Translations under genes and position numbers: made by a program
In this document: positions 176 through 34,189 of the stretch, piece after piece
Layout of the letters: the number at the start of each line of letters is the position of its first letter
Position numbering within the stretch: the stretch's first letter is position 1
Notes under the pieces: model-generated
What the model saw: only the letters and a program-made list of their open reading frames with translations
Told to the model about the DNA's origin: nothing
Database searches by the model: none
Assembly: GCA_937967805.1 (NCBI GenBank)
Contig: CALBTC010000225.1
Span: 1-34,189, forward strand
Length of the DNA: 34,189 bases
Reading direction: 5' to 3'
Origin: an uncultured Anaerolineaceae bacterium
GTDB lineage: Bacteria > Chloroflexota > Anaerolineae > Promineifilales > Promineifilaceae

Positions 176-1423
176 TCAGCCGGCGAGTTGGAAGATGGTT
201 TGCAGCTCGCCAATTTGCAGCACGTCGCCGTCGTTGAGGGTGCGGGCACCGCAGATGGATTGCCCATTGAGCAGCGCCGGGAAAGCGTTGTCGAGGCGCT
301 CCAGATAGTAGCGTACCCGCGCCCGCCGGATGACAACGTTGCCAATGGTAATTTCGCCCGTTGACGGTAACTGTTGAGAGTCACGACGGCCGTCTGGCCA
401 TAAAAACGCCAGGCTGGGGCAAGGCTGAACGGGCTGCGGCGGAGAAGGAGCGACCGCCCGTCGTGGCTCCACCTGTGGCGCGCGTTTCTGTTTCTGGCTG
501 CCCATCCATCCTGCCAGCGCCAGCATCAAGCTGCCAATGACGCCCAGCAGAAGCGGCTGGACATTACCGGCCACAAATCGGGGCAGCCAACGCAGCGTGT
601 CAAAATGCCAGCGGTCGTTAAACGCTTTAGCCTGCCCGTATTGCTGCTCAAAATTGTCCAGCCAGGCAACGTCGGCATCAATTTGCTGCCCGGTGGCCCT
701 CATATTAGCGGGCAGGCCTTGCCAGGATTCAATGCTCTGGTAAATAAAATCGGCAAGCTGGGCAAATTCATTGGCAGCTTCAGGAGGTATCGCCCAGGAT
801 AAAAGGCCAGCGTCCCCGGCGGCAATGCTGGTTGCCGTAGCGCCGGCATCAACCAGCTCCTGTTGAATTGTCTCCAGTGCGGGCAGCTTCGTCACGGCAG
901 AAACGGCCGTCGCCACCTCATCCAGCCCCTCACTTACATCTGCCAGGCTGCGGGAAACAGGCCGACTCTGCTCATACAAATTTGCCAGAACCACATCACC
1001 CCGATCCAGATCATAGAAACGGAGCCGAGCTAAATCACCCGACAATGTTTCTGCCGCGGCAATCGATTCCAGATCGGCATCAAAGGCAGCAATTTTGTGC
1101 ACGGCCGTATCCACTCCGGCCACCGCAAATTTCACAGGGGCACGCAGTGGAACCCAGTCGAGCAGCCTTGTCACATTTGTGCGATCCAACCAATTGGCAA
1201 AAGCGGCCGCCTCTTCGGTGTGCAGCGTTTGGCGGTACTGCACCGCAAGGCTGCCATATGAATTCAGGCGCACAGCTCGCTGCGGCTCAGCCGCGATTTG
1301 CTGTATGAGATCTTCTGTGACAATGCGATACGGATCAAATAAATGGATAAGTTTGGCTCCCATGAATAAAGCCAAAAGAGCAGCCCCCAACAATAACCCG
1401 ACACGATACGCCCAACGGAACAT
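176..1423 (-). CDS. Two-TM membrane protein with degenerate FHA-like C-terminus
   Basis: 415 aa, function unknown. A hydrophobic segment lies at residues about 8-29, followed by an Ala/Leu-rich mostly helical domain (about 30-285), a second membrane segment (about 288-308), a Pro/Arg-rich linker (309-337), and a C-terminal part (about 338-415) that resembles the end of a forkhead-associated domain: an ITIGN strand, LLNGQSICG, and a TLNDGDVLQIG finish. The Arg and Ser-x-x-His that bind phosphothreonine in true FHA domains are not visible, so phosphopeptide binding is doubtful. Topology predicts a large extracytoplasmic domain with the FHA-like part inside. A purine-rich GGGAGG lies a few bases before the ATG. 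It is separated from the upstream hydrolase by a terminator, so it is probably transcribed on its own. Confidence 0.8.
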   Translation of the reverse strand: MFRWAYRVGLLLGAALLALFMGAKLIHLFDPYRIVTEDLIQQIAAEPQRAVRLNSYGSLAVQYRQTLHTEEAAAFANWLDRTNVTRLLDWVPLRAPVKFAVAGVDTAVHKIAAFDADLESIAAAETLSGDLARLRFYDLDRGDVVLANLYEQSRPVSRSLADVSEGLDEVATAVSAVTKLPALETIQQELVDAGATATSIAAGDAGLLSWAIPPEAANEFAQLADFIYQSIESWQGLPANMRATGQQIDADVAWLDNFEQQYGQAKAFNDRWHFDTLRWLPRFVAGNVQPLLLGVIGSLMLALAGWMGSQKQKRAPQVEPRRAVAPSPPQPVQPCPSLAFLWPDGRRDSQQLPSTGEITIGNVVIRRARVRYYLERLDNAFPALLNGQSICGARTLNDGDVLQIGELQTIFQLAG

Positions 1424-1484
1424 GTTATCCTCCCGGCTCCCCTGCCAAAACCGGCCCGATAAACTGATTTGTACCCGGCAGTAT

Positions 1485-1515
1485 AAATAAAAAACCTGGC
1501 CGATAACGGCCAGGT
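1485..1515 (-). terminator. Rho-independent terminator after the 1561-2478 hydrolase
   Basis: On the minus strand, ACCTGGCCG and CGGCCAGGT pair with a 4-nt loop (stem at 1494-1515) and are followed at once by a run of six T. It sits 46 bases past the hydrolase stop codon and about 60 bases before the next minus-strand start, so it separates two co-directional genes. Confidence 0.88.
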
Positions 1516-1560
1516 CCCTAACAGCAAACTGACAATTTTATTACAGCAGGTGCGCGGGAT

Positions 1561-2478
1561 TTACATCGGGCGTACCTGGGCCAAGATGTTGAGGATGTGG
1601 TCGCGCATGGAGGCGCTGTGCCACATGGCTGAAATGTGGCTGGCGGGGATGGTGACTAACGGCCGTTCCGCAAAAAGTTCTGCATGATTTTCCAGCCGAA
1701 AGAAGAGATCATTCTCACCTAACAGCGGAAAAACGCGATCCGCGGCACATTGTTCATAGTACGCTGTAAAGTCTAAATATTGACGCAGTTCCTCCTGCGT
1801 TAGCTGCATGGGTCGGTTAAACAAGTCAGAAATATCCCAAATGACCTGGGCCAGATTGGGGGAGGACAGCATGGGAATGACGGCCCGTGTTTGCTGCAGC
1901 AGTCCCTCGTACAGCAAGCTGGTAATGCCACCCCAGCTCACGCCGGCAGCCACGGTGTAAGCCGCGCCTTCTGCCTCAAACTGGCGCTGCACCAGCGCCA
2001 TGATCCGCAGCGAACCGGCAAAAATCTGGTAAACGTTCTGCACCGAGGCAAAACCGATTTGCGTGGGGTCTTGCCAGTTGTCATGGAAGGGGGCCTGGAC
2101 GCAAACGGTGTGTACCGGCAGAGAAACGGCCGTTGGGAAAAGCCGCCGCCAACTGTTGGTGTACGGGTACTCATTAAAGCCGTGATGAAACAGCAGCAGC
2201 GGGGCCGCCGGATCAACCGTCGGGCGCACCTGCACCCGGCAAACAATTTCGCCCGATGCCGTTTGCAAGGTGACAGCGTGTTCGCCAGGAGCAGTTAAAT
2301 GGTAAACGGCCGTTTTCTGCATATCTACCCTGGTTTGGGCCAGCACTTCTTCGAATGAAGGGGCGTCTGCTACACTGGTTTCTAACGAATCTGGTACGCG
2401 ATAGTTCAGGCCGTACAAAACCGCCTTATCCAGCTGCTGTACCATATGTTGTCGTAAATTGAAATTAAGTGAAAACAT
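1561..2478 (-). CDS. Alpha/beta hydrolase (esterase-like)
   Basis: 305 aa with alpha/beta-hydrolase signatures. An HHG oxyanion-type motif lies at 98-100 after a hydrophobic strand, the nucleophile elbow is GVSWGG with Ser181, a likely acid is Asp257 (in LLGENDLF), and a likely catalytic His is His281 or His287 in the PASHISAMWH stretch. No signal peptide is seen, so it is probably cytoplasmic. The substrate cannot be told from sequence. The chosen ATG has only a weak purine stretch upstream; an in-frame ATG at codon 12 is an alternative start. It is divergent from the broken DUF1990 gene and ends at a clear terminator, so it is likely monocistronic. Confidence 0.85.
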   Translation of the reverse strand: MFSLNFNLRQHMVQQLDKAVLYGLNYRVPDSLETSVADAPSFEEVLAQTRVDMQKTAVYHLTAPGEHAVTLQTASGEIVCRVQVRPTVDPAAPLLLFHHGFNEYPYTNSWRRLFPTAVSLPVHTVCVQAPFHDNWQDPTQIGFASVQNVYQIFAGSLRIMALVQRQFEAEGAAYTVAAGVSWGGITSLLYEGLLQQTRAVIPMLSSPNLAQVIWDISDLFNRPMQLTQEELRQYLDFTAYYEQCAADRVFPLLGENDLFFRLENHAELFAERPLVTIPASHISAMWHSASMRDHILNILAQVRPM

Positions 2479-2642
2479 GGACCAACCTTAACATCGTGCC
2501 GCACAATCGCCAACAAAATGGAACGCCTAAAAAAATTCACTCATCTTTCACTCTGTAACGGCCGTTTGTTATCGCTTATGTCAGATGTTCACCACATCCT
2601 GTGGTTGTTGCGGAATTTCTCACTTGTTAGAATATGACTAAG

Positions 2643-2725: not shown

Positions 2726-3331
2726 ATGAAACTTTTTACCACAGCAAAACTAGATTGGTTCGACGATGGCTGCTGCGACGTAAAATATTTAGACGTCTGG
2801 AACAAGTCACCGCTGTCTTACAAACCAGGCCAGCCGATCGATGAAGGCTGGCATGTGGATACGTATGAACTTTCATTAGGGGTGGATGAAGACGGCCGTC
2901 TCTTCCGCAAAGCCGCCGACCTCCTCATGCGCAACCAGTTTTATCCCCACGATGTGCTCAGCCACACCAGCGACTTCAGCCTGTGGAACCGCTGGGCCTA
3001 GGTGTGCGATCGCATCGTGCAGCGCATTCACCTCTTTAAGCTTTTCGGTAAACCAATCATTGACGTGATCACCATGAACGAAGTGCGCCAGGTCATCACC
3101 GAACCACGCCGTTACGGCCTTACCTACGTCACCGTAGGCCACCACGTAGAGCAAGGCGAATGGTCCGCCTGCCTGGAATGGCACGATAACACCGAACTGG
3201 TACTCACCATTCACTCAATTTCCCGCCCTGTTCCCGAAGAGCCGGCCCGCAATTACAGCTTCATGCGCGCCAAACAAAAATCCGCCCACCAGCGTGGTTT
3301 GCAACATTTCAAACAAGCGGTCCTCACCTAA
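2726..3331 (+). pseudogene. DUF1990-family protein gene interrupted by an in-frame TAG
   Basis: One reading frame of 201 codons is cut at 2999-3001 by TAG; both halves are in the same frame and together look like one DUF1990 domain. The first part carries GRLFRKAADLLMRNQFYP. The second carries the typical RYGLTYVTVGHHVEQGEW run and the ISRP ending. The start is set at ATG 2726, which has AGAGG six bases upstream; a TTG at 2666 would add 20 unlikely residues. A GTG follows the TAG directly (3002), so translation could restart, but each half would be an incomplete domain. A C-to-T change of CAG (or G-to-A in TGG) is the simplest origin. A sequencing error or stop readthrough are alternatives. 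Confidence 0.75.
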
Positions 3332-4272: not shown

Positions 4273-4784
4273 ACTTTGGTGAGGGGGGAACGGCCGAACA
4301 CTTCCACCACCTCCGCCAACACCCTTTTTGCCAATTCTCCCAGCAGCTCTCCAGTTTCAGGATGCGGGAAATCAGGCAGCAAGTCGGCCACGGGCACGGC
4401 GACGTGGGCAAACTTGCTTAAATCAGGATCAGGGACAGGGCGTGAACGGCCGTCATCACCGTTATACTCAAACACCCCATCGTTAAACAGGACAATATCG
4501 GCATCAATGGTGCGCGGCGCGTTTTTGTCCGCCTGGCGTACCCGCTTCAGCTTCGTTTCGATGGAACCGATAATTTGCTGCTTGATTTCGCCGGCTGTGA
4601 GATCTGTCTGGATGAGAACGGCCGCATTCCAAAAATTGGGCTGGTTCAGCAGGCCAACCGGTTCTGTTTCGTAAATGGGGGAAACGGCCGTCACCACACA
4701 CATCTCCCGCAGCAGCGCAATTGCCCGCGGCAAATTCCGCTCCTTCTCAATATTCGACCCCAACGCAATAACCACTTGATTCAT
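4269..4784 (-). CDS. folK: 6-hydroxymethyl-7,8-dihydropterin pyrophosphokinase
   Basis: 171 aa. HPPK transfers pyrophosphate from ATP to hydroxymethyl-dihydropterin in folate synthesis. Family features seen: VVIALGSNIEKERNL at the N-terminus, TAVSPIYETEPVG (32-44), NAAVLIQT, and the signature NAPRTIDADIVLF (about 88-100) with the two Mg-binding Asp residues 94 and 96, then PHP-type ending PDFPHPETG. The start at ATG 4782-4784 places the conserved VIALGSN at residue 5; an upstream in-frame extension would be read from a repeat and is rejected. folB lies upstream on the same strand with a 93-base gap filled by a palindromic repeat, so the two are likely co-transcribed. Confidence 0.94.
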   Translation of the reverse strand: MNQVVIALGSNIEKERNLPRAIALLREMCVVTAVSPIYETEPVGLLNQPNFWNAAVLIQTDLTAGEIKQQIIGSIETKLKRVRQADKNAPRTIDADIVLFNDGVFEYNGDDGRSRPVPDPDLSKFAHVAVPVADLLPDFPHPETGELLGELAKRVLAEVVEVFGRSPLTKV

Positions 4785-5338: not shown

Positions 5339-6169
5339 TTATAAATGTGCCTCCAACCAATCTTCAATATCAGCAATGACCTGCTCGCGGTGGATGTCGT
5401 TGTGCGATTCGTGCACGCCGCCTTCGTACACAATCAGCTTTTTGTCTTCATGCGGCACTTTGGCAAAAAAGTTGCGGCTGGCCAAGACGTTGACAATGTT
5501 GTCGCTGTCGCCGTGAATCATGAGCAGCGGCGGTTTGAACTCAGCGGCGTGGGCCATGGCCCATTCGGCCGCGGCCGGGAATTCGACGCCAAAGCGAGGC
5601 GTGGCGAAGTCTTGCACGAGGGGATCGTCCCCGTAAGCCTGGGCTTCGACCGGATCGCGCGAAATGTCGCTGAGTTCCAGACTGGTTTTCACCTGCATCG
5701 CCGGGGCCAATCGGGATAAGATTTTGCTGATAAAGGCCAAAATGGGCGGCACGTCCAGCTTGCCCACGGCCGGAGCCGAGGCAATGATGCCATTGTACCC
5801 ATCGGGATGGCGCAGGACGTAGTTGAGCATAATGTTGCCGCCCATGCTGTGCCCGTACAGAAAAAACGGCTGTCCCGCCCACCGCTCCTTAACGAGTTTA
5901 ATAAACCTACCCAAATCATCCAGATATTCTGACCATTTATTCACAAACATGCGCTTGCCCGGCGAACGGCCGTGTCCCCGATGATCCGCCGCGTAAATCG
6001 CATATCCCAACGGCACCAGCGCATCTACCACGTGCGGATAGCGTCCGCCATACTCCCCCATGCCGTGCACAATGACAATCACCGCCTTCGGCTCGCCCGC
6101 CGGCAGCCAGTTCTGGAAATACAGTTCCAGGCCATCGGCACTTTTGAAGGTTCCTTCTTCGTGTCTCAT
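5339..6169 (-). CDS. Monoacylglycerol-lipase-like alpha/beta hydrolase
   Basis: 276 aa, matching the lysophospholipase/monoglyceride-lipase family (Hydrolase_4), which cleaves single-chain glycerides or lysolipids. Seen: VIVHGMGEYGGRY (about 33-44), AADHRGHGRSPGKR (60-73), the nucleophile GHSMGG with Ser108, the acid in IHGDSDNIV (about Asp221), and GGVHESHND with His253 as likely catalytic His. No signal peptide, so probably cytoplasmic or peripheral. GGGAAAGAAG directly precedes the ATG. Its upstream gap up to the promoter at 6308 carries a long inverted repeat. The actual substrate is not determined by sequence. Confidence 0.9.
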   Translation of the reverse strand: MRHEEGTFKSADGLELYFQNWLPAGEPKAVIVIVHGMGEYGGRYPHVVDALVPLGYAIYAADHRGHGRSPGKRMFVNKWSEYLDDLGRFIKLVKERWAGQPFFLYGHSMGGNIMLNYVLRHPDGYNGIIASAPAVGKLDVPPILAFISKILSRLAPAMQVKTSLELSDISRDPVEAQAYGDDPLVQDFATPRFGVEFPAAAEWAMAHAAEFKPPLLMIHGDSDNIVNVLASRNFFAKVPHEDKKLIVYEGGVHESHNDIHREQVIADIEDWLEAHL

Positions 6170-6343: not shown

Positions 6344-6763
6344 ATGAGTGGCCATTCTGCTCCAAACCGTCCCCGCAGCGTAACTATTACTTTTTGGAGT
6401 GTTATTTTTTTAGGAACATGGAATCTTGGGCGAGCCATCGCCATTGGCCAACAGCTCAATTTACAAAACGTTCTTGACCTTCAGCCAGACCCGCGCCTGC
6501 GTTTGGCAGCGGCGATAATTTTTACATTGTTATTTTTTGGCCTGGCGTGGCAGTTGAGGCGGAAACGGCCGTTTACCATCAACGCCATTCCGCTCACCAT
6601 CGCCGGGTACACGGTTTATGAAACGGCCGTGTGGCTGCTCTTTGCCCGGCCGCCGCGCAACTGGTCTTTGTGGCTGGTCACCAGCCTCATTTTAATCGGC
6701 AGCATTCTATTTACACGGTGGGCGCTCCGGCGCGCCACTCACACCTACTTTCATTCATTATGA
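6344..6763 (+). CDS. Small multi-spanning membrane protein
   Basis: 139 aa, not recognised. Three to four hydrophobic segments are visible: about residues 13-35, 55-71 ([15 protein letters not shown]), 82-99 and 106-124 ([16 protein letters not shown]), with Arg-rich loops (QLRRKRP, LRRATH) suggesting cytoplasmic sides. It is the first gene after a strong promoter and its TGA overlaps the ATG of the carboxyltransferase gene (ATGA at 6760-6763), so the two are translationally coupled. The coupling hints at a shared role, but nothing in the sequence matches the membrane subunits of sodium-pumping decarboxylases. Confidence 0.8.
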
Positions 6764-8304
6764 GCGATAAACTAGAGAAACTTCAGCAGCTTAGACACGA
6801 ATCACAGCAAGGCGGCGGGCCAGAGCGCATTGCCCGCCACAAAGAAAAGGGGAAGATGACCGCCCGCGAGCGGATCGAGCTCTTGCTGGACAAAGGCTCC
6901 TTCCGCGAGATCGACGCCTTTGTCACCCATCGCGAACGCAACTTCGGCATGGACAAGCAAAAATTCCTGGGCGACAGTGTGGTGACGGGGTGGGGGACAG
7001 TGGACGGCCGTCTCGTCTACGTCTTTAGCCAGGATTTCACCGTCTTTGGCGGCAGCCTCAGCCAGGTCCACGCCGAAAAGATTTGCAAAATCATGGACAT
7101 GGCCATGCGCAACGGCGCGCCCGTCATCGGCCTCAACGACTCCGGCGGAGCCCGCATTCAGGAAGGCGTCGTGAGCCTGGGCGGCTACGCCGACATCTTC
7201 CTGCGCAACACGCTGGCCTCGGGCGTCATTCCGCAAATCAGTGCCATCATGGGGCCGTGTGCCGGTGGCGCAGTTTATTCGCCAGCCCTCACCGACTTCA
7301 TCTACATGGTCAAAGAGAGCAGCTATATGTTCATCACCGGGCCGGACGTGGTCAAAGCGGTCACCGGTGAAGAAGTCTCCTTTGAAGAGCTGGGCGGGGC
7401 GATGACCCACAACGAGAAAAGTGGCGTGGCTCACATGGCCGCCGAAACGGAGGCCGATGCCCTCTATCTCATCCGCGAATTGATGGGCTACCTGCCGTCC
7501 AACAATATGGAAGACCCGCCCTTCGTCCCCACAAAAGACGACAGCCTGCGCACGGAATCGGCGCTCAACACCCTCGTCCCCGACAATCCCAACAAGCCGT
7601 ACGACATCAAAGATGCCATTCACCTCATCATGGACGATGGCGTTTTTTATGAAATTCAGGAGCATTTTGCCCAAAATATTGTCGTCGGCTTTGCTCGATT
7701 GGGCGGCTTTTCCGTGGGCATCGTGGCCAACCAGCCGATGGTACTGGCCGGCGTGCTGGACATCGCCGCCAGCGAGAAGGCGGGCCGCTTTGTTCGCTTC
7801 TGCGACAGCTTCAACATTCCTCTAATTGTATTTGAAGATGTGCCCGGCTTCTTGCCCGGCGTCAACCAGGAGCATGGCGGGATTATTCGCCACGGGGCCA
7901 AGCTGCTTTACGCCTTCTGCGAAGCCACCGTGCCCAAAATCACCGTTGTCACCCGCAAGGCGTATGGCGGCGCCTACTGCGTGATGAACAGCAAGCACAT
8001 ACGCGCCGACCTGAACCTGGCCTGGCCCACGGCCGAAGTGGCCGTGATGGGGCCGGATGGGGCGGTTAACATCATCTTCCGCCGCGAGCTGAACGGGGCA
8101 AATGATCCTGCTGCCCGCAAAGCGGAACTCGTGGAAGATTACCGCGAACAGTTCGCCAATCCATACGAAGCGGCCCGACGCGGCTACATTGACGACGTCA
8201 TCGAACCCAGCCAGACCCGCCCCCGGCTGATCAACGCCCTGAACATGCTGCAAAACAAGCGGGACCATAACCCGCCGAAAAAGCACGGGAATATTCCCCT
8301 TTAA
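6760..8304 (+). CDS. Acyl-CoA carboxylase carboxyltransferase subunit (PccB-like)
   Basis: 514 aa, normal for the PccB/MmdA family that moves the carboxyl group from biotin to acetyl- or propionyl-CoA. Seen: [15 protein letters not shown] near the N-terminus, [44 protein letters not shown] in the N-half, and [19 protein letters not shown] and the [16 protein letters not shown] strand in the C-half. In the usual YGGAYDVM motif the Asp is Cys407 here (YGGAYCVM). This position corresponds to the residue known to set acyl-chain preference in Streptomyces PccB, so substrate choice may differ from strict propionyl-CoA. The ATG overlaps the preceding stop; biotin carboxylase and carrier genes follow. 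Confidence 0.93.
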
Positions 8305-11428: not shown

Positions 11429-12012
11429 AAATCGAGGTAAAGTTTTTGGTGCCGGACCTGGCAGCATTTCGCGAGCGGCTGCTGGCGGCAGGGGCAGAGC
11501 TGACAAAGCCGCGCATTTATGAGCGGAACTTGCGTTTTGATACGGCCGATGAGCGCCTGCTGAAGAAAGAATCGTTGCTGAGGCTCCGGGAAGATACGGC
11601 CGTCACCCTCACCTACAAAGGCACTCCAGAGAATCTCCCCAAAAGCGAAGCCAAAGTGCGCGAAGAGTTGGAAGTACAGGTCACCGACTTTGACACATTG
11701 TCCTTGATTTTCCAGCGGCTGGGCTTTGCCCCGGTGCAGGTGTATGAAAAGTACCGCGAAACGTTTGAATGGCAGGACGTGGAAATTGTGCTGGATGAGC
11801 TGCCGTACGGAAATTTTATTGAGTTGGAGGGGGAAGAAGCGGGGATTAAGACGGCCGTTGCCCACCTAAACCTCAATTGGCAAGACCGCATCGTAGACAA
11901 CTACCTGGGGCTGATGGCCCAACTCAAAGCCCACCACAACCTGCCCTTCAACGACCTCACCTTCGCCAACTTCACCAACTTGGATGTCTTCATTGCTGAC
12001 ATTTTGCGTTAA
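11410..12012 (+). CDS. CYTH-domain protein (class IV adenylate cyclase / triphosphatase type)
   Basis: 200 aa. The hallmark ExExK is present as EIEVK preceded by Glu7 (Glu7, Glu9, Lys11). Following strands carry alternating charges as expected for the triphosphate tunnel: YERNLRFDT, LLRLREDTAVTLTYKG, KVREELEVQV, YEKYRETFEW, VEIVLDELPYGNFIELEG. CYTH proteins bind triphosphates and act as inorganic triphosphatase, thiamine triphosphatase or CyaB-like cyclase; sequence alone does not choose. The gene begins inside the 3' end of the methyltransferase gene and is probably the last of the operon. No terminator is visible after it. Confidence 0.92.
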   Translation: MREKNLEIEVKFLVPDLAAFRERLLAAGAELTKPRIYERNLRFDTADERLLKKESLLRLREDTAVTLTYKGTPENLPKSEAKVREELEVQVTDFDTLSLIFQRLGFAPVQVYEKYRETFEWQDVEIVLDELPYGNFIELEGEEAGIKTAVAHLNLNWQDRIVDNYLGLMAQLKAHHNLPFNDLTFANFTNLDVFIADILR

Positions 12013-18878: not shown

Positions 18879-18886
18879 TAAGCTCC

Positions 18887-22489: not shown

Positions 22490-22593
22490 TAAAGGCAGAA
22501 TTTACACAATCCTAACCGGTTTTCTCCAGGAGAGATTGCCTAAGTCCGGGACAAAAGAGGGTAACGGCCGTTTCCTCCTAAAAAAAGTGGCGG

Positions 22594-25348: not shown

Positions 25349-26542
25349 ATGATTGCCAAACGTCGGGCGCGGCGTCCTATCGGGCCGGCCACCATTGGGG
25401 GCGCTTACTACGGTTTTTTCTGGCCAATGGTGGCTATGTATGCCCCTTATTTCAACGTCTATCTGCTGGAACTGGGCTTTAGCGGCACGCAGATCGGGGT
25501 GCTGGCGGCCGTTTTCCCCTTGTTTGCCCTGGTTGTTGCTCCAGCGCTTTCTGCTTTGGCCGACCGGCGCGGCTGGCGGCTGTGGCTGCTGCAAATCAGC
25601 CTGGTGGGCTGGGCAGCAGTGCTGCTCGTGTATCCGTTCGCCACCGCTTTTGCCACCTTTCTGCTGCTGGTCATTGTGGAATCTGCCATGCGCAGCCCCA
25701 GTCTCCCCATCGCCGACGGCGTCATTGCCCGCATGGCCGCGCGCCACCGGCTCAATTATGGCGATATGCGGCTATGGGGATCGTTTGGTTTTGCGGCCGT
25801 TTCCATTTTGAGCGGCATGGCCTGGCAGCAGGTTGGGTACCGCACCATGTTCCTGGCGGCGGCGCTGGCCGTGCTGCCGGCGCTGTTTGTTGCCCGCAAG
25901 CTGGAAGAGGGTGAATTGGCGGTGACAAACGGCCGTCGCTCCATTCTCTTTTTAGCCCAGGACAAAGGGTTGGTGATTTTGTATGTCAGCGCCTTCCTGC
26001 TGGGCATGGCCTTGTTTAGCACCTTCATCTTTGGCGGCGTTTTCATTAGCCAGCTAGGTGGCAGCGAAACAGATATCGGTCTCCTATTTGGCCTCTCTGC
26101 CTTGGCGGAGGTGCCGATCATGCGCCACAGTGGGGCAATCATCCGGCGGCTGCAGGGTCCCCAGGCGCTGCTGCTGGCCATGTTTTTCCTGGCAATTGGC
26201 CTGCTGGGTTTCGCGCTGGCCTGGTCGCCTATCGTCTTAATCATCGCCGGGGCTGTCAAAGGGGTTGGCTACGGCCTGTTGTTTGTGGTGATGGTGCAGT
26301 TGCTGAACGAGCGCGCCCCCGAAGGCTGGAACTCAACCGCACAATCTGTGTTTCAGGCTGCCTTCCTGGGGTTGGCCCCTTTGCTTACCTCGGCCTTGAG
26401 CGGCTACATTTATGATGTGTGGGGTGCCAATTTGCTCTTCGGCTTGATGACGGCCGTCATCGGCCTGAGCATCATTTTGCTGCTGTTTGCTTTACGCCAG
26501 AATTGGTTCATCCCACACGATTGGAAATTTGAAGAAAGTTGA
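25349..26542 (+). CDS. MFS transporter (MFS_1-like)
   Basis: 397 aa with about 12 hydrophobic segments, normal for major facilitator permeases. N-terminal features: AYYGFFWPMVAMYAPYFNVY, LGFSGTQIGVLAAVFPLFAL (TM2), and the loop 2-3 motif ALADRRGWR, which is the A-motif shape G/A-x-x-x-D-R-x-G-R. The second half has GLSALAEVPIM and the repeated RR-L motif IIRRLQG. The layout recalls the nucleoside or phenylpropionate permease group (YfcJ/HcaT-like). Substrate unknown. The ATG 25349 has GGAGAG four bases before it; the longer TTG start at 25334 is rejected. Confidence 0.9.
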   Translation: MIAKRRARRPIGPATIGGAYYGFFWPMVAMYAPYFNVYLLELGFSGTQIGVLAAVFPLFALVVAPALSALADRRGWRLWLLQISLVGWAAVLLVYPFATAFATFLLLVIVESAMRSPSLPIADGVIARMAARHRLNYGDMRLWGSFGFAAVSILSGMAWQQVGYRTMFLAAALAVLPALFVARKLEEGELAVTNGRRSILFLAQDKGLVILYVSAFLLGMALFSTFIFGGVFISQLGGSETDIGLLFGLSALAEVPIMRHSGAIIRRLQGPQALLLAMFFLAIGLLGFALAWSPIVLIIAGAVKGVGYGLLFVVMVQLLNERAPEGWNSTAQSVFQAAFLGLAPLLTSALSGYIYDVWGANLLFGLMTAVIGLSIILLLFALRQNWFIPHDWKFEES

Positions 26543-26712: not shown

Positions 26713-27588
26713 TTGCTGTTACCCTTACTAAAAACGATGCGTCCCCGGCAGTGGACAAAAAACGGGTTTGTTTTTGTCGCTCTCTTTTTTGACGGCAAGC
26801 TGCTGGAAGTGGAATATCTACTGCCCACGATAGGCGCATTCATTTTGCTGTGTCTCATGTCCAGCGCCGTTTATATCATGAATGACCTGGCGGATATTGA
26901 AAGTGACCGCCAGCATCCTGTTAAGAAGAAACGGCCGTTACCTGCCGGAACCCTCAATCCCCAAATTGCGCTCATTGCCGCTATCCTCTTTGCTTTGGGC
27001 AGCCTGGCGGCCGGACTGCTGCTCAATTTATATTTTGGCCTGGTGCTGCTGGCCTACCTGTTGAGCCAGATCGCTTACTCCTTCTGGCTGAAGCACGTGG
27101 TACTGCTTGATATTTCTATTGTGACCGCCGGGTTTGTCCTGCGCATTGCTGCGGGGGTCACCGTTATTGACGTGCAGCGCTTTTCTCCCTGGCTTTACCT
27201 GTTTGGCGGTTTTTTGGCCCTGTTTATGGTGCTGGGCAAGCGGCGGCACGAGCTGACTCTGCTAGGCAATAATGCCGGCAGCCACCGCGCTATCCTCAAG
27301 GAATACAACCTGGACCTGATTGACCGGCTTCTGGGCATTGTGACCACCAGCGCCGTTGTTTCTTACAGTTTGTACACCTTTCTGTCCGAGGGGCTACCGG
27401 AAAACCATTTAATGATGCTGACCATTCCCTTTGTGCTGTATGCCATCTTCCGCTACCTTTATTTGATTCACGTGCGCGAAATGGGCGGCGCACCGGAAGA
27501 GATTTTGCTGCGGGACCGTTCGCTGCAGGTGACGCTGGCCTGCTTTGCCCTGGTGGTTTTCCTTACGCTCTACATATTTGGATCATGA
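26713..27588 (+). CDS. UbiA-family prenyltransferase (DPPR synthase-like)
   Basis: 291 aa, about eight to nine membrane helices. The first Asp-rich motif is MNDLADIESDRQHPVKKKRP (Asn57, Asp58, Asp61, Asp65), binding Mg-pyrophosphate of the prenyl donor. MRPRQWTKNGFVFVALFFDG at the N-terminus and the pattern D-x-SIVTAGFVLRIAAGV plus FMVLGKRRHEL resemble decaprenyl-phosphate phosphoribosyltransferases (DPPR synthase) more than quinone-synthesis UbiA. The start is TTG 26713 because GGGAGAG lies six bases upstream; an ATG at codon 9 is the alternative. The stop overlaps the mevalonate kinase ATG (ATGA at 27585), so the two are coupled. Confidence 0.88.
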   Translation: MLLPLLKTMRPRQWTKNGFVFVALFFDGKLLEVEYLLPTIGAFILLCLMSSAVYIMNDLADIESDRQHPVKKKRPLPAGTLNPQIALIAAILFALGSLAAGLLLNLYFGLVLLAYLLSQIAYSFWLKHVVLLDISIVTAGFVLRIAAGVTVIDVQRFSPWLYLFGGFLALFMVLGKRRHELTLLGNNAGSHRAILKEYNLDLIDRLLGIVTTSAVVSYSLYTFLSEGLPENHLMMLTIPFVLYAIFRYLYLIHVREMGGAPEEILLRDRSLQVTLACFALVVFLTLYIFGS

Positions 27589-28550
27589 ACGAATTGAGTG
27601 CTGTGACGGAGGCCACAGCTCCGGGCAAGATTATTTTGTTTGGCGAACATGCGGTGGTGTACGGCCGTCCCGCCATCGCCGCCCCCGTGTCCCAACTGCG
27701 GGCCAAAGCCACAGTTACCCCTTCACCCAGCAACTGCACCCTCATCGCCCCCGATTTAGGCCGGCACGACCGGCTGCAAGACGTGGCCGAAGACGATGCC
27801 CTGGCCATGGCCGCCCGGCTGGTGCTGAAAGCAGCCCAGATCGAAACCATTCCCAACGTGATGATTCACGTCAAGAGCCAGATTCCCATCGCCAGCGGCA
27901 TGGGCAGCGGCGCGGCGATTACGGCGGCCATCATTCGCGCCCTGGCGCAGCATCTCAACCGGCCCGACCTGCAAAGCAACGAGATGGTTTCCGCCCTCAC
28001 TTACGAGGTGGAAAAAATTCACCACGGCACGCCCAGCGGCATCGACAACACGGTGGTGGCCTACGAGCAGCCAATTTATTTTGTGCGTCAGTCGCCACAA
28101 AACCAGATTGAGCCGTTTAGCGTGGCCGCACCGCTGCGCTTTGTGGTGGCCGATACGGGTGTGCGCAGCAGCACCAGGCTGGCCGTGGGCGATGTGCGCC
28201 GCCAATATAATCAGCAGCCGGCCCAGTTCGCCCGCATTTTCGATATGTGCGGCCGTATCGCCCAGGCCGCCCGTCAAGCTATCGAAACGGGTGATACCAT
28301 ACTGGTAGGCCAACTCATGACAGAAAACCACGCCTGGCTGCAAAAAATGACCGTCTCATCACCGGAACTAGACAAGTTTGTAAACGCCGCTTTGCAAGCC
28401 GGGGCGTTGGGGGCCAAGCTGAGCGGCGCCGGCCGCGGCGGCAATATGATTGCTCTGGTAGCGGATGAAGGGATGGAAACGGCCGTCTGTCAGGCTCTTC
28501 AACAAGCCGGCGCCATCTCAACGCTTACGACCGTTCTGGAATCATTTTAA
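27585..28550 (+). CDS. mvk: Mevalonate kinase
   Basis: 321 aa, GHMP kinase. It phosphorylates mevalonate in the mevalonate route to isoprenoids. Seen: PGKIILFGEHAVVYGRPAIA (13-32) with Lys15, the ATP loop IPIASGMGSGAAIT (100-113), HHGTPSGIDNTV (146-157) with catalytic Asp154, VVADTGVRSSTR, and GAKLSGAGRGGNMIAL near the C-terminus. The motif TPSGIDN and the length favour mevalonate kinase over galactokinase or homoserine kinase. It overlaps the UbiA gene by 4 bases; other mevalonate-pathway genes are not in the window. Confidence 0.93.
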   Translation: MNELSAVTEATAPGKIILFGEHAVVYGRPAIAAPVSQLRAKATVTPSPSNCTLIAPDLGRHDRLQDVAEDDALAMAARLVLKAAQIETIPNVMIHVKSQIPIASGMGSGAAITAAIIRALAQHLNRPDLQSNEMVSALTYEVEKIHHGTPSGIDNTVVAYEQPIYFVRQSPQNQIEPFSVAAPLRFVVADTGVRSSTRLAVGDVRRQYNQQPAQFARIFDMCGRIAQAARQAIETGDTILVGQLMTENHAWLQKMTVSSPELDKFVNAALQAGALGAKLSGAGRGGNMIALVADEGMETAVCQALQQAGAISTLTTVLESF

Positions 28551-28553: not shown

Positions 28554-29048
28554 ATGCAAAAAATTCCCGTTCACATCTGGCTGATCGTTTTCGGTTTGAC
28601 CCTGCTTGTCAGCGTCGCTGCAACCACCCTGCTGTTCACGCTGGGGCTTGTTTTGATTGAGTTTCTACTGTACCCGCTGGCTCTGGGAATTGCAGCGTTG
28701 TTGGCGGGGTTAACGGCCGTCTGGCTCAGCAATCGACTCAGCAGTGACAACTTACAAACGCCGGTTGCTGCTGTAGTGAGATGGTGTGAGGGAACGGCCG
28801 TTCTCCTGGCATTCCTCCTGATACTGGCAAACGCACTGGGTTGGCTGCCCTTTCTCCCTATTTTTGTTAGCGGTGGAACGGCCATCATTCTGGCTCTGGT
28901 TGCTACCTTCTCCGCCGCGCGGCTGCGTCAGGCGGCCCCAGCAGCCCAAACCCCAATGCGCCGCATCGTCACCTGGCTCATCATTGCTTTTCTGGCGATT
29001 CCACTGGTAATTTTTGTAGCATCGCTATTTGGCTGGGCTGGAGCCTAG
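28554..29048 (+). CDS. Small integral membrane protein
   Basis: 164 aa with about five membrane segments (about 8-31, 33-56, 76-96, 100-118 and 138-160). Mostly Leu/Ala/Ile, no conserved motif recognised. It starts three bases after the mevalonate kinase stop, so it belongs to that operon. Two ACGGCCGT copies lie within the gene (28713 and 28794). Function cannot be assigned. Confidence 0.75.
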   Translation: MQKIPVHIWLIVFGLTLLVSVAATTLLFTLGLVLIEFLLYPLALGIAALLAGLTAVWLSNRLSSDNLQTPVAAVVRWCEGTAVLLAFLLILANALGWLPFLPIFVSGGTAIILALVATFSAARLRQAAPAAQTPMRRIVTWLIIAFLAIPLVIFVASLFGWAGA

Positions 29049-29165: not shown

Positions 29166-29540
29166 ATGAGTGCAAATGAATTGGCTCAACAAAAAGGAAC
29201 CCTTGGCGTGATAGATATTTCAACAACGGCCGTTACCACCATCGCCAATCAGGCCGTCAACCAATGTTATGGTGTCGTTGGCATGGCCAACAAAAATTTG
29301 GCCAACGGCATCGCCAACCTGCTCTCCCGCGACAGCAAAAAAGGGATCGACGTGCGCATTGAAAACGATCAGATCAGCGTCGATGTCTACGTGATTGTAG
29401 AATACGGCGTCCGCATTCGGGCCGTGGCTGAGAGCATTCAACACACCGTGAAGTTCCACGTCGAAAAAGCATTAGGCATGACCGTCAGCGAAGTGAATGT
29501 TTTTGTCCAGGGACTGCGCATGGGGAAAGAGAACAGCTAA
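29166..29540 (+). CDS. Asp23/Gls24 family protein
   Basis: 124 aa. The Asp23/YloU family acts at the cell envelope and in stress tolerance in Firmicutes. Seen: GVIDISTTAVTTIANQAVNQ (the family start), CYGVVGMANK, VRIENDQISVDVYVIVEYGV, RIRAVAESIQHTVKFHVEKA, and VNVFVQGLRM at the end. No signal peptide or membrane segment. AGGAG five bases before the ATG fixes the start over GTG 29160. It lies directly before fakA, as yloU precedes yloV in Bacillus. The stop TAA sits at the start of the following inverted repeat. Confidence 0.92.
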   Translation: MSANELAQQKGTLGVIDISTTAVTTIANQAVNQCYGVVGMANKNLANGIANLLSRDSKKGIDVRIENDQISVDVYVIVEYGVRIRAVAESIQHTVKFHVEKALGMTVSEVNVFVQGLRMGKENS

Positions 29541-29625: not shown

Positions 29626-31365
29626 GTGACACAAACCCACACAAGCGAAGCCACGCAAACGGCTCCACCACCCAAATGGCTGCAATGTAACGGCCAGCAG
29701 CTAAAAAAATTGGCCCAGGCCGCGCTCGCCTGGCTGGAGCACAACCACCAACACGTCAACGCGCTAAACGTTTTCCCCGTACCGGACGGCGATACGGGGA
29801 CCAACATGCTGCTGACGATGCGCTCAGCCTATGACCGCATTAAAAACAGCGACGAAGAGCACGTCGGCAAAGTCGCTGAACAGTTGGCCCATGGCGCGCT
29901 CATGGGGGCACGGGGCAACTCCGGCGTCATCCTCAGCCAGATTTGGCGCGGATTAGCCAAGGGGCTCAAGGGCAATGAAACATTCGACGCACAAGACCTG
30001 GCCGAAGCATTTCAGGTTGCCTCCGACACCGCATACGGCGGGGTAATGAAGCCGGTGGAAGGCACCATCCTCACCATTATTCGCGAAGGAGCCAGCGAAG
30101 CCGCCGATGCCGCCAAGAAAAGCCGCGACCTGCGCTTTTTGCTGGAGCGCGTGCTGGAACGAAGCAGCCAGGCCCTGGAGCGCACGCCGGACCAGTTGGC
30201 CATCCTCAAGCAGGCAGGCGTGGTTGATTCTGGCGGGCAGGGGCTGGTTTACATTTTTGAAGGAATGCTGCGCTATGTTCACGGCAAGATGAACGAACTC
30301 AAGCTGGCGGCCACGATGGGCAGCAACAACGTAGGCCCGCAACACAAAATCACCGCCCAGGAATTGGCCATGCCCGATGGGGGCGAGATCGAAAATCCGT
30401 ATGACGTGCAGTTCATTTTGATGGGTGAAAATCTCAACGTAAACGAGGTGCGCAGCCGCATCGACGCCATGGGTGATTCCACCGTGGTCGTGGGAGATGA
30501 AACCACCATCAAGGTCCACATCCATGTAAAAGACCCCGGCGTGCCGATTTCCTACGGCATCAGCCTGGGCAAGATCACCGATGTGGTGGTAGAAAACATG
30601 CAGATGCAAATGGAAGAGATTGTGCACGTGCCGGACACACAAACGGCGGCGCAAACGGCGCAAATGGGCATTCCCAACCCATCCGTCATCAAACCAACCG
30701 TGCAGCCAGGGCAAATCGGCGTGGTGGCCGTGGCCGCTGGCGACGGATTGGCCGAAATTTTCCGCAGCATGAACGCATCCTTTGTCGTCAGCGGCGGCCA
30801 GACCAACAATCCCAGCATTGAAGAGCTGTTCCAGGCCATTCAGGATGTGCCCACCGACAAAGTGATCATCTTGCCCAATAATAAAAACATCATCCTGGCT
30901 GCCGAAGCCGCCCGCGATTTGAGCCCCAAAAACGTGGCCGTTGTGCCCACCAAGACGGCCCCGCAGGGTCTCAGCGCCTTGCTGGCGCTTGATCCCGATG
31001 GCGATTTGGAAGAAACAACCGCCGCCATGCTCGAAGCATCACGGGAAGTGTCTACCGGGGAGATTACCCGCGCTACGCGGACCGTGACGCTGGATGGCGT
31101 GGAGGTGAATGAGGGCGAGTTCATTGGATTGGTAGACGGCCGTCTTTGCAGCTCCGGTTCAGAATTAACGGCCGTGCTGACGGCCGTTCTCGCTGCCATG
31201 AAGATGGAAGACCGCGAACTGCTCTCCCTTTACTATGGCCAGGACATTTCTGAAGAGGAAGCAGGCGAACTCGCCAGCCAAATTGAAGAACAGTACGAAG
31301 AGATAGAAATTGAATTGCTCTCGGGTGGCCAGCCATATTACTTTTATATCTTGGGGGCAGAGTAA
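29626..31365 (+). CDS. fakA: Fatty acid kinase FakA (DAK2-domain protein, YloV type)
   Basis: 579 aa. FakA phosphorylates fatty acids carried by FakB/DegV proteins. The N-terminal DhaL-type kinase domain (about 21-225) has FPVPDGDTGTNM (50-61) with the Mg-binding Asp residues, GALMGARGNSGVILSQ, and VVDSGGQGLVYIFEGM. The middle and C-terminal parts (FakA central and DegV-like) include NPYDVQFILMG, VKVHIH-type strands, GDGLAEIFRSMNASFVVSGG and IILPNNKNIILAAEAA. Start is GTG 29626 with GGAG ten bases upstream; the frame can be extended to 29587 but that reads repeat sequence. DegV follows, so kinase and carrier are together. Three octamer copies cluster at 31136-31187. Confidence 0.93.
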   Translation: MTQTHTSEATQTAPPPKWLQCNGQQLKKLAQAALAWLEHNHQHVNALNVFPVPDGDTGTNMLLTMRSAYDRIKNSDEEHVGKVAEQLAHGALMGARGNSGVILSQIWRGLAKGLKGNETFDAQDLAEAFQVASDTAYGGVMKPVEGTILTIIREGASEAADAAKKSRDLRFLLERVLERSSQALERTPDQLAILKQAGVVDSGGQGLVYIFEGMLRYVHGKMNELKLAATMGSNNVGPQHKITAQELAMPDGGEIENPYDVQFILMGENLNVNEVRSRIDAMGDSTVVVGDETTIKVHIHVKDPGVPISYGISLGKITDVVVENMQMQMEEIVHVPDTQTAAQTAQMGIPNPSVIKPTVQPGQIGVVAVAAGDGLAEIFRSMNASFVVSGGQTNNPSIEELFQAIQDVPTDKVIILPNNKNIILAAEAARDLSPKNVAVVPTKTAPQGLSALLALDPDGDLEETTAAMLEASREVSTGEITRATRTVTLDGVEVNEGEFIGLVDGRLCSSGSELTAVLTAVLAAMKMEDRELLSLYYGQDISEEEAGELASQIEEQYEEIEIELLSGGQPYYFYILGAE

Positions 31366-32310: not shown

Positions 32311-32336
32311 TTAAGCATCATCCCTTAGGATAAACT
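32307..32336 (+). promoter_or_regulatory. Promoter of recG, leaderless type
   Basis: TTGATT (32307-32312), an 18-base spacer and TAAACT (32331-32336) precede the recG ATG by seven bases. The -35 overlaps the degV stop. No ribosome-binding site is seen. Confidence 0.55.
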
Positions 32337-32343
32337 TTCTCCC

Positions 32344-34189
32344 ATGAAAAAAGCTTTAAGCAGATTGCAACGTGTATTGGATTTAGAAACCAGCCAGGGC
32401 TACAAAAACAAAGCCGTCGTGGGCGGCATTCGGCAGTTTGCCACCTTTTGGGTAGGCCAGGCGCGGGAAGAAGCGGTTACGGAAATGGACAAGGCATTGG
32501 TGGAGCAGGTGGCCGAGGTGCTGTCTGATTATGCGCGACTGCCCGGCACCGAAGCACGCGCCAAAGCGATTGAACAGCTAAAGAGCAAGGTGCAGCAGCG
32601 TCGGGCGCAGCAGCCAACCGCAGCACCGCAGGCCAAACCAACCCCATCCCAACCAGAACAGTCGCCGCAAAAATCCGCCCCACCGCCAACACCAGATGAA
32701 CCAACCGAATCGGCCGAAGAGAAACCGAAACCCACTTCCTTGAGTGAAGATGAACCAACCCCACGCGGTAAAAAAGGAACCAAATGGGACCGTCGCCCAG
32801 CCAGTCGCAAGCCGGTTGACCCCGATCCGGAAGGCCTGGCCCAATCGGTAACGGCCGTGCGCGGCATTGGTCCCAAGCTGGCCGAACATCTGGCCAAACT
32901 GGGCGTCACCACCATCGAAGACATGCTTTATCTCTTCCCCCGCCGCTTCGACGACTACACGCTGATGAAACCGATTCATAAGCTAGCCTACGGCGAAACC
33001 GTCACCGTGATTGGCACCATTTGGGAGACGCGCGCCCGGCGCACCCGCAGCAACCAGGTGTTGGTGCAATCGGTCATCAGCGACGGTACGGGTAAGGTGC
33101 AGGCCACCTGGTTCAACCAGCAGTGGCTGGTCAACAAGCTCAAGGCCGGCATGCAAATTGTTATCAGCGGCAAGGTGGAACAATATCTAGGCCGCCCCGT
33201 CTTTAACTCGCCCGAATGGGAACCGCTGGAGCTGGAGCCGCTGCGCACCCGGCGCATCGTGCCCATTTATCCGCTCACGCAAGGCCTCAGCAGCAACCGG
33301 ATGCGGGACATTATGCGCAACACGGTCAACTATTGGGCGCCCCGCGTGCCGGACCCGCTGCCGGAGAGCGTGCGCCGGCGGCAAAAGCTGGAGCCGCTGC
33401 CCGAAGCCATTCAGCAGCACCACTTCCCAGACAGCCAACACGCGCTGCATGAAGCCCGCCGCCGCCTCATTTTTGACGAGCTGTTTCTGCTCCAGCTGGG
33501 TATGCAGGGCTTCCGGCGTGAGTGGCAGTCGCAACCGGGGGTGGCGATTGGGGCGGATACGGCCGTACTCGACCAGTTCCAACAAAGCCTGCCCTACACG
33601 CTCACCAACGCCCAGCAGCGCGTCATCAAAGAAATTGCCGACGACATGGCCGACAGCGTGCCGATGAACCGCTTGCTGCAAGGGGACGTGGGCGCGGGCA
33701 AGACCGTCGTCGCCGCCGCTGCGCTGCTGCTGTCGGCCAAAGCCGGCTACCAATCGGCCCTCATGGCCCCGACCGAGATTTTGGCCGAGCAGCATTTCAA
33801 CGGCCTCCAGCCGCTGCTGGCGCCGCTGGGCCTGCGCATCTGCCTGCTCACCGGCAGCACCAACGACGCCGAAAAGGCCCGCATCTACGCTGATCTTGCC
33901 GCCGGCGAAATCGATCTGGCCATCGGCACCCATGCCCTCATTCAAGAAGCCGTGACATTCCAGAACCTGGCGCTGGCCATTGTCGATGAGCAGCATCGTT
34001 TCGGCGTGGACCAGCGGCAGGCGCTGCGCGACAAAGGACCATCTGGCGGCGAAACCAGCCCGCACCTGCTCACCATGAGCGCCACGCCTATTCCGCGCTC
34101 GCTGGCCCTGTCGCTTTACGGCGATTTGGACCTATCCATTTTGGACGAAATGCCGCCGGGCCGACAGGAGATCAAAACGCGCTGGATTC
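32344..34189 (+). CDS. recG: ATP-dependent DNA helicase RecG, 3' end cut by the window
   Basis: 615 codons are present and the frame is open to the window end. RecG remodels stalled replication forks. The first 80 residues are helical, followed by a Pro/Glu/Lys-rich linker (about 85-165, with PPPTPDEPTESAEEKPKP) that is absent from Escherichia coli RecG. The wedge domain begins with AVRGIGPKLAEHLAKLGV (about 170) and an OB fold with RSNQVLVQSVISDGTGKVQA. Walker A is GDVGAGKT (about 447-454), motif Ia MAPTEILAEQHF, motif II DEQHRFG (about 548-554) and motif III MSATPIPRSLA. The N-terminal extension is about 150 residues. The missing part should hold motifs IV-VI. Confidence 0.95.
   Translation, partial: MKKALSRLQRVLDLETSQGYKNKAVVGGIRQFATFWVGQAREEAVTEMDKALVEQVAEVLSDYARLPGTEARAKAIEQLKSKVQQRRAQQPTAAPQAKPTPSQPEQSPQKSAPPPTPDEPTESAEEKPKPTSLSEDEPTPRGKKGTKWDRRPASRKPVDPDPEGLAQSVTAVRGIGPKLAEHLAKLGVTTIEDMLYLFPRRFDDYTLMKPIHKLAYGETVTVIGTIWETRARRTRSNQVLVQSVISDGTGKVQATWFNQQWLVNKLKAGMQIVISGKVEQYLGRPVFNSPEWEPLELEPLRTRRIVPIYPLTQGLSSNRMRDIMRNTVNYWAPRVPDPLPESVRRRQKLEPLPEAIQQHHFPDSQHALHEARRRLIFDELFLLQLGMQGFRREWQSQPGVAIGADTAVLDQFQQSLPYTLTNAQQRVIKEIADDMADSVPMNRLLQGDVGAGKTVVAAAALLLSAKAGYQSALMAPTEILAEQHFNGLQPLLAPLGLRICLLTGSTNDAEKARIYADLAAGEIDLAIGTHALIQEAVTFQNLALAIVDEQHRFGVDQRQALRDKGPSGGETSPHLLTMSATPIPRSLALSLYGDLDLSILDEMPPGRQEIKTRWI

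Follow-up and report, generated by a model that had tools for sequence, protein, structure and literature searches.

We analysed a stretch of DNA of 34,189 nucleotides (34 kb; hereafter the window) from an uncultured Anaerolineaceae bacterium, in which the perfect 8-bp palindrome ACGGCCGT, with the core CGGCCG, is repeated far above expectation. The results showed a genome-wide excess of this word, codon-independent saturation, retention of its sites in place, dialects among relatives and one phage loaded with it. This is a system like HIP1, the highly iterated palindrome (HIP) of cyanobacteria, outside Cyanobacteria and with dialects. To the whole explanation that we prefer, namely a Promineifilales HIP that would be read by a symmetric host factor, kept by fixation bias and used as a mark of self DNA, we give a probability of about 0.45.

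Abundance and placement of the palindrome

We counted exact copies of ACGGCCGT in the window and compared the count with several null models. The results showed 53 copies, from 386 to 33559-33566, which is the number that the initial annotation had reached by hand. Its estimate of less than one copy by chance also held, since 100 dinucleotide-preserving shuffles gave a mean of 0.59 copies and a maximum of 4; the second-order Markov expectation was 1.33. The word ranked first among the palindromic 8-mers of the window, and the runner-up, CGCCGGCG, had 8 copies versus 2.55 expected. Within called genes, 43 copies were found, whereas 60 synonymous codon shuffles gave 5.2 on average and never more than 10, indicating that the excess survives a codon-aware background. 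The genic copies were distributed over reading frames 0, 1 and 2 as 25, 16 and 2 and occurred on both gene strands, and 10 copies were intergenic according to a simple gene caller, in line with the earlier description of copies in every frame, on both strands and between genes. The extended form AACGGCCGTT, described as frequent, accounted for 16 of the 53. Across the window and four genomes, 81-93% of copies lay within called genes, and the intergenic density was 1.25-1.46 per kb.

The local claims of the initial annotation fared unevenly. The copy at 18827, which had been assigned to a terminator tip, does lie in the middle of a perfect 32-bp inverted repeat (18815-18846), and the region 18790-18880 had a fold z-score of -5.0, but a consensus terminator scan did not call this inverted repeat. 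The carboxylase genes, said to be poor in copies, contained 3 (7004, 8786 and 9030) in about 3.2 kb versus about 5 at the mean density of the window, a difference within chance. Uneven spacing was found in a G005 stretch, with a coefficient of variation (CV) of 1.32 and one 7.4-kb gap; otherwise the spacing was close to random (CV 0.92-1.02 in three of the four longer stretches and 0.84 in the window). Regular spacing was looked for in the window and the four longer stretches, and none was found. The copy-free 7.4 kb, on G005:C9, lies amid copies about 450 bp apart and is perhaps DNA acquired recently.

We then counted variants one letter away from the word. At core positions 2-7, the ratio of observed to expected variants was 0.02-0.70 in four relatives and 0-1.33 in the small set of the window, whereas the outer positions, with ratios of 0.95-4.84, were not depleted; the expected numbers behind these ratios are too high, because the shuffled contexts of the word feed the null. 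Copies 14-38 bp apart were rarer than expected in three sets of stretches (from G002, G003, G005, G007 and G111), at 0.52, 0.65 and 0.37 times the expected number of pairs, whereas control words showed an excess at this distance, and the deficit may be a protein footprint. A 35-bp exclusion zone between copies was clear in four contig stretches and only partial in a replicate; we keep it as a hint because distances of 8-20 bp were not depleted in that replicate, G007:C1.

The window belongs to Chloroflexota, near Candidatus Leptofilum, in Promineifilales. Its YloV protein shares 93% identity with that of the Anaerolineae metagenome-assembled genome (MAG) L001 and 53-88% with those of 16 further Chloroflexota MAGs, and a methyltransferase of the close relative G002 shares 85-86% identity with two proteins bearing the name of Candidatus Leptofilum, a member of the Promineifilaceae (Promineifilales, Chloroflexota) according to NCBI. 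In a tree of 42 YloV proteins, the window grouped with G001 and G002 inside a fully supported group with G003 and G004. The backbone of this tree is unresolved, and G167 (no match) and G241 (partial match) were left out, so the tree does not fix the number of dialect switches. A plasmid search with the carboxylase region of the window returned only distant relatives.

Among the 17 relatives found first, 14 carried 2,984-15,031 copies per genome versus 40-459 copies of the reversed control word, and three (G014, G015 and G016) did not reach such numbers, with 181, 14 and 1,189 copies. In a sample of the class, 5 of 199 genomes exceeded 1,000 copies. In an order-wide census of 56 genomes, 26 carried ACGGCCGT 5,641-15,176 times, and the density was about one per 600 letters in many genomes of the order, for example 11,512 copies in 7.3 Mb of G002 and 14,867 in 7.7 Mb of G007. 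The excess thus survives the genome-wide count against control words as well as the codon-aware background, the two tests that could have refuted the proposal of the initial annotation, and its central claim, that selection at the DNA level or a bias in copying or repair acts as in HIP1 but on a different sequence, is supported. ACGGCCGT is a palindromic octamer far above Markov and shuffle expectation genome-wide, it occurs in coding and non-coding DNA independently of codon usage, and its one-off variants are biased to the first and last positions. Its density falls within the range of about 0.5-2.5 per kb (500-2500 per Mb) given for HIP1 in PMC4390886, with G217 just below (2,887 copies in 6.6 Mb). 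Taken together, these properties make it almost certain that ACGGCCGT is a HIP-type word.

Dialects, site retention and imprint on proteins

To class the 56 genomes, we counted three words, each with its reversed control, across whole genomes and used sample stretches for the core. The A dialect, ACGGCCGT, was found in 28 genomes (including G012 with 2,984 copies and G217 with 2,887), the T dialect, TCGGCCGA, in two (G215 with 9,414 and G111 with 7,668) and the G dialect, GCGGCCGC, in one (G197 with 12,040). Six genomes (G167, G238-G241 and G016) had only the core CGGCCG with mixed flanks, and the four of them in the YloV tree formed one fully supported group. One genome, G015, was classed by TGCCGGCA, with 3,665 copies and few CGGCCG words. 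The other 18 had none of the tested words at high copy and may hold other words, indicating that the system can be lost or lacking; some of these are GC-rich with a mild excess of core words, such as G084 (646 TCGGCCGA versus 138 of its reversed control; 549 ACGGCCGT versus 145).

The dialects are sharp. In 180 kb of G002, the flanked palindromes comprised 305 A, 0 T, 3 G and 0 C forms, and 260 kb of G111 held 420 T and 1 A. The switches of flank are symmetric, both halves of the palindrome changing together. Two side observations were made. In G002 and G003, the base just outside the word is A in 56-60% of copies, whereas G005 and G007 have C there in 37-40%, which resembles a second, weaker flank dialect that depends on lineage. 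In G167, G197 and G238-G241, words with the mirrored core GCCGGC are nearly missing (2 copies of CGCCGGCG in 8.0 Mb of G197, for example), an avoidance that may reflect restriction or belong to the logic of the dialects.

We compared the retention of sites in aligned stretches with that of GC-matched control 8-mers. Between G002 and G003 (77.6% identity, 42.7 kb), 64 of 73 and 64 of 78 sites were intact, versus 24% and 18% of controls. Between G007 and G005 (82.1%, 16.5 kb), the numbers were 31 of 32 and 31 of 37, versus 33% and 32%, and between G002 and G007 (68.5%, only 3.5 kb), 5 of 5 and 5 of 10, versus 7% and 6%. The window retained 11 of 17, 10 of 11, 11 of 17 and 7 of 9 sites against L001-L004, versus 24-28% of controls. 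In the two larger comparisons, only 0-8% of sites were one mismatch off, versus 29-35% of controls. With the rate taken as minus the logarithm of the intact fraction, a rough estimate, word-breaking changes were 6-35 times rarer than control changes in these two comparisons and 3-15 times rarer in the smaller ones that could be computed.

From the genome counts, a word is about 30-190 times denser where it belongs to the resident dialect than where another dialect is in use. Protection from mutation alone predicts equal factors for loss and enrichment, whereas a fixation bias of scaled strength about 4 predicts about 13 for loss and about 55 for enrichment. These rough rate figures lean to fixation bias, without separating selection from biased conversion, and we consider a fixation bias, rather than mutation bias alone, to be the probable cause. 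Single places seem to matter little. Within the A dialect, 13 of 34 sites were in the same place at 55% protein identity and 4 of 14 at 49%, and between the T and A dialects at 55.6% identity, 3 of 65 were; this re-placement of sites after a switch suggests that it is the supply of readable words that matters.

To describe the imprint on proteins, we compared tripeptide numbers with expectations from amino-acid frequencies. In the A dialect, Thr-Ala-Val was spelled ACGGCCGT in 141 of 143 cases in G002, 183 of 186 in G003, 606 of 622 in G007 and 121 of 122 in G005 (97-99%), where codon usage predicts 14-18%. The tripeptide itself was in 6-8-fold excess, the same 143, 186, 622 and 122 cases comparing with 22, 27, 88 and 16 expected. 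In the T-dialect genome G111, Thr-Ala-Val was not in excess (35 versus 38 expected); Ser-Ala-Asp/Glu occurred 265 times versus 50 expected, and 231 of these were spelled TCGGCCGA. In G197, of the G dialect, Ala-Ala-Ala occurred 38 times versus 11 expected, 32 of them spelled GCGGCCGC, and elsewhere (other genomes and the phage stretch) it stood at 0.9-1.9 times expectation. The tripeptide excess changes with the dialect, indicating that the word shapes proteins, with an imprint that differs from one dialect to the next. This DNA-level imprint calls for caution in the use of peptide statistics from these genomes.

Mobile DNA, candidate readers and competing explanations

We scanned viral contigs for ACGGCCGT with a criterion of three clustered copies, which favours dense records. 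Fourteen loci were found, four of them dense throughout (>2 per kb). The whole records held 227 copies in 65.5 kb (G246, with 1 copy of the control word), 226 in 100 kb (G247), 106 in 46 kb (G248) and 85 in 33.5 kb (G249), densities of 2.2-3.5 per kb versus 1.7-2.2 in the A-dialect bacterial contigs read. G246 is a tailed phage with genes for a major head protein, portal, large terminase and head morphogenesis, and in the 21 kb of it that were read, 21 of 21 Thr-Ala-Val were spelled with the word, where 4 were expected. G247 and G248, which bear partition genes as well as FtsK-like or terminase-like ones, are possibly plasmids or phage-plasmids, and G249 is unclassified. In a second scan with 15 new loci, one further dense record was found (L369, 2.98 per kb), two loci belonged to G246 and G247, and seven had 1.1-1.8 per kb. 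In four viral contigs whose capsid proteins are relatives of the G246 one (39-55% identity), no copy was found in 45.9 kb. Because the phage is denser than the bacterial contigs, the reader seems to act on the DNA of the cell generally and not on the chromosome as such, and the word very probably acts on other replicons too.

A like scan for HIP1 (GCGATCGC) gave 88 stretches, and 44 of the 80 loci examined had more than one copy per kb. Two of five loci checked (L248 and L268, at 3.4-3.6 per kb) bear phage genes, so HIP1 is also present on some phages, and such loaded viral contigs bear on the question of HIP1 itself.

In the explanation that we prefer, the word would be read as double-stranded DNA by a dyad-symmetric host factor, either a homodimeric binding protein or an enzyme resembling an orphan methyltransferase, with strong specificity for the CGGCCG core and an evolvable flank. 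Wherever the protein tolerates it, word-creating variants would be favoured and word-breaking ones disfavoured at fixation, with the scaled strength of about 4 used above. As a mark of self DNA, the word would let resident DNA be protected or licensed, and phages would have had to adopt the mark; this role is a tentative proposal, and both the symmetric reader and the host of the phage are inferred. In a stricter form, which we find somewhat unlikely, the word would be a lineage-specific password read as self, DNA without it would be disadvantaged, and phages would have to adopt the local version to infect. Lineages would then switch by rewriting about ten thousand sites, possibly via a relaxed core-only stage, and cyanobacterial HIP1 would be the same kind of system.

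The main rival is methylation-directed mismatch repair, in which a methyltransferase of the core would mark the word, nicking would steer repair and word-completing mutations would be kept, the word being a by-product. Of the roles listed by the initial annotation, copying/repair bias survives in this form; we consider it unlikely and prefer the self-mark. The density seen here, near one per 0.6 kb, is close to that required by Elhai's repair model of HIP1 (PMC4390886), and the one-off deviations of HIP1 are reported there to concentrate at the outer positions, the pattern also seen here. MutL was present in 23 of 24 genomes tested, as was a ComEC-type gene; both are uninformative because they are nearly universal. 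The lack of regular spacing speaks against this model.

The methyltransferases give the repair model mixed support. Of the 22 genomes searched for 5-methylcytosine (m5C) methyltransferases (PF00145), 10 had them; all 10 are among the 18 that carry the word or a variant, and the 4 others had none, which favours the model. They were absent from 8 of the 18 carriers, 7 of which have a CGGCCG-type word; G002 and G007, both with contigs >500 kb, lacked them. In the genomes searched, this pattern of presence and absence rejects an m5C methyltransferase as the common cause. Restriction-type N4/N6 methyltransferases formed a patchwork, with no orthologue common to all carriers among the 60 loci compared, a set covering some of the PF01555 matches. 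A cognate methyltransferase shared by the carriers, as a restriction-modification system would have, was thus not seen in these 22 genomes and 60 loci.

An orphan methyltransferase of about 660 residues, with a split PF01555 domain and a weak DUF1156 match (L118-type), follows the flanked forms imperfectly. It was found in 43 of the 56 genomes: 26 of the 28 with the A dialect, both T-dialect genomes, the one G-dialect genome and 14 of the 18 without the word, but none of the 6 core-only genomes and not the TGCCGGCA genome. Matches at E ~1e-4 in G013, G015 and G242 were dropped as other methyltransferases. It is missing in the A-dialect count from G013 and G017; G017 may be incomplete, because MutL is missing there too. 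Its catalytic motifs are intact in carriers and non-carriers wherever the aligned piece covers them, the second motif lying outside the pieces of G001 and G111. Judged by presence, this enzyme is neither necessary nor sufficient. Its absence from the core-only group fits a putative flank-reading role, but that group is mostly one clade, and as far as the sequences indicate, it is doubtful that the enzyme is the reader or writer. The suggestion that the word is a methyltransferase target is thus supported only in part, with the L118-type enzyme kept as a lead.

If the word were the site of an enzyme of general use in replication or DNA topology (a cleavage site of a type II topoisomerase, or a primase or replisome signal) that benefits all replicons, this would explain a palindromic, genome-wide word with near-random spacing that is also on phage. 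Nothing tested points to such an enzyme, we know of none with a strict, switching 8-bp specificity, and we regard this reading as improbable. A signal for the organisation of the chromosome or nucleoid, a role reportedly proposed for HIP1 by Xu et al. in 2018, would agree with the conservation of sites in place, but it is at odds with their re-placement after a dialect switch and with the higher density on the phage and the three other viral-collection records, and its chances appear slim. For the same reason, a chromosome-only segregation signal, as the initial annotation had suggested, is disfavoured.

Another of the suggested roles was a DNA-uptake sequence. In Neisseria and Haemophilus, such sequences are maintained by transformation drive and also have dialects. 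The dialects and the proteome imprint resemble uptake sequences, and a ComEC-type gene is nearly universal, but it is also present in 5 of 6 genomes tested without the detected word. Transformation drive should not load a tailed phage, and the present word is palindromic with symmetric flank switches, whereas uptake sequences are stated to be non-palindromic in PMC1939737; we therefore hold this reading to be very improbable. That the word is a side effect of codon choice, amino-acid composition or GC content can practically be dismissed, although most copies are genic, in view of the null models including the synonymous shuffle, the codon-usage prediction for Thr-Ala-Val, the intergenic copies and the rarity of the reversed word in the 14 A-dialect genomes.

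Several results weigh against the preferred explanation. The analysis identified neither a reader gene nor a partner in restriction or defence. Selection would be mimicked by a bias of repair or gene conversion under which words are gained more often and lost less often, and the rates could be estimated only roughly. A single record is shown to be a phage by structural genes, the four other dense records being plasmid-like or unclassified, and no host was linked to the dense viral-collection records. The density on mobile DNA may partly reflect ascertainment, because the scans favour dense copies, although the whole-record number of G246 is not produced by the few clustered copies used in the scan. 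For TCGGCCGA, one scan of the same kind found six loci, none of them dense, and hence no T-dialect phage. The 18 of 56 genomes of the order without the tested words count here as well. Saturation is weaker in the T dialect, where one tripeptide class reached 231 of 265 and 34 of 35 and [FLIV]-Gly-Arg only 73 of 131 and 14 of 29. Finally, G084, classed without the word, spells 14 of 21 Thr-Ala-Val as ACGGCCGT, where codon usage predicts a fraction of about 0.29; this may reflect GC-rich codon use or a weak remaining preference, and the tripeptide shows no excess there (21 versus 18 expected).

All copies in the window are listed in Table 1. Two of its genes were noted in passing: gene 14050-15120 encodes a 356-aa protein that matches the C-terminal part of GyrA only, and 13157-13873 encodes a pentapeptide-repeat protein whose best matches, the Alr5209 and HetL families, are both below cut-offs.

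Table 1. Exact matches to ACGGCCGT in the window, with gene coordinates from the gene caller
Feature	Position	Strand	Context
HIP copy	386..393	.	in gene 176-1423(-)
HIP copy	903..910	.	in gene 176-1423(-)
HIP copy	1101..1108	.	in gene 176-1423(-)
HIP copy	1659..1666	.	in gene 1561-2478(-)
HIP copy	2126..2133	.	in gene 1561-2478(-)
HIP copy	2306..2313	.	in gene 1561-2478(-)
HIP copy	2558..2565	.	intergenic
HIP copy	2892..2899	.	intergenic
HIP copy	4446..4453	.	in gene 4269-4859(-)
HIP copy	4684..4691	.	in gene 4269-4859(-)
HIP copy	5966..5973	.	in gene 5339-6169(-)
HIP copy	6565..6572	.	intergenic
HIP copy	6623..6630	.	intergenic
HIP copy	7004..7011	.	in carboxyltransferase gene 6631-8304(+)
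HIP copy	8786..8793	.	in biotin carboxylase gene 8396-9913(+)
HIP copy	9030..9037	.	in biotin carboxylase gene 8396-9913(+)
HIP copy	10986..10993	.	in gene 10544-11428(+)
HIP copy	11596..11603	.	in gene 11410-12012(+)
HIP copy	11851..11858	.	in gene 11410-12012(+)
HIP copy	13129..13136	.	intergenic
HIP copy	14288..14295	.	in gene 14050-15120(+)
HIP copy	14659..14666	.	in gene 14050-15120(+)
HIP copy	14678..14685	.	in gene 14050-15120(+)
HIP copy	15088..15095	.	in gene 14050-15120(+)
HIP copy	16340..16347	.	in gene 15380-16561(+)
HIP copy	17480..17487	.	intergenic
HIP copy	18827..18834	.	intergenic, centre of perfect inverted repeat 18815-18846
HIP copy	18974..18981	.	in gene 18887-19558(+)
HIP copy	19421..19428	.	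in gene 18887-19558(+)
HIP copy	19460..19467	.	in gene 18887-19558(+)
HIP copy	19971..19978	.	in gene 19670-20440(+)
HIP copy	20415..20422	.	in gene 19670-20440(+)
HIP copy	21256..21263	.	in gene 20524-21714(+)
HIP copy	22262..22269	.	intergenic
HIP copy	22564..22571	.	intergenic
HIP copy	23974..23981	.	in gene 23784-24770(-)
HIP copy	24328..24335	.	in gene 23784-24770(-)
HIP copy	24430..24437	.	in gene 23784-24770(-)
HIP copy	24576..24583	.	in gene 23784-24770(-)
HIP copy	24687..24694	.	in gene 23784-24770(-)
HIP copy	25929..25936	.	in gene 25334-26542(+)
HIP copy	26450..26457	.	in gene 25334-26542(+)
HIP copy	26931..26938	.	in gene 26713-27588(+)
HIP copy	27661..27668	.	in mevalonate kinase gene 27585-28550(+)
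HIP copy	28479..28486	.	in mevalonate kinase gene 27585-28550(+)
HIP copy	28713..28720	.	in gene 28554-29048(+)
HIP copy	28794..28801	.	in gene 28554-29048(+)
HIP copy	29226..29233	.	in gene 29160-29540(+)
HIP copy	31136..31143	.	in YloV gene 29587-31365(+)
HIP copy	31168..31175	.	in YloV gene 29587-31365(+)
HIP copy	31180..31187	.	in YloV gene 29587-31365(+)
HIP copy	32851..32858	.	intergenic
HIP copy	33559..33566	.	in gene 33187-34065(-)

Comparison with known systems

The Caldithrix palindrome described in PMC5317091 is different, longer and mostly intergenic. A search of the published literature on the word, on HIPs and on methylation in these organisms found no such word in Chloroflexota among the papers listed, subscription journals being little covered. 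Repetitive extragenic palindromic (REP) sequences and bacterial interspersed mosaic elements (BIME) likewise have many palindromic copies, but they are longer and lie between genes, whereas the present word is mostly genic. Chi is an over-represented 8-bp word that can mark self DNA against a nuclease; it is non-palindromic and orientation-dependent, whereas the two halves of the present word switch together. DNA uptake sequences (DUS) and uptake signal sequences (USS) are short genome-wide words with dialects among relatives and a proteome imprint, and the present word differs from them in being palindromic and denser in phage than in the bacterial contigs read.

HIP1 is the closest likeness. 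Both words are palindromic octamers with a palindromic 6-bp core, found in and between genes, with alternate flanks in relatives, deviations at the outer positions and viral contigs loaded with the word; the alternate flanks in cyanobacterial relatives include TCGATCGA and GGGATCCC (PMC4390886). The present word is not HIP1 proper, since it is ACGGCCGT and not GCGATCGC, its host belongs to Chloroflexota and not to cyanobacteria, its core is CGGCCG, and its flanks are nearly exclusive in the flanked lineages. It also differs in having a core-only clade, a measured tripeptide saturation and no established core-specific methyltransferase. To our knowledge, HIP1, described in 1995, is still without an agreed function, and a second HIP-type system in another phylum offers an independent way into this puzzle. 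The dialect switches and the loaded phage indicate that the reader must change with the dialect and act on phage DNA, and the word may help to link phages to uncultured filamentous bacteria as their hosts. Switching words, an amino-acid cost and a loaded phage together turn the question of HIP1 into a comparative test.

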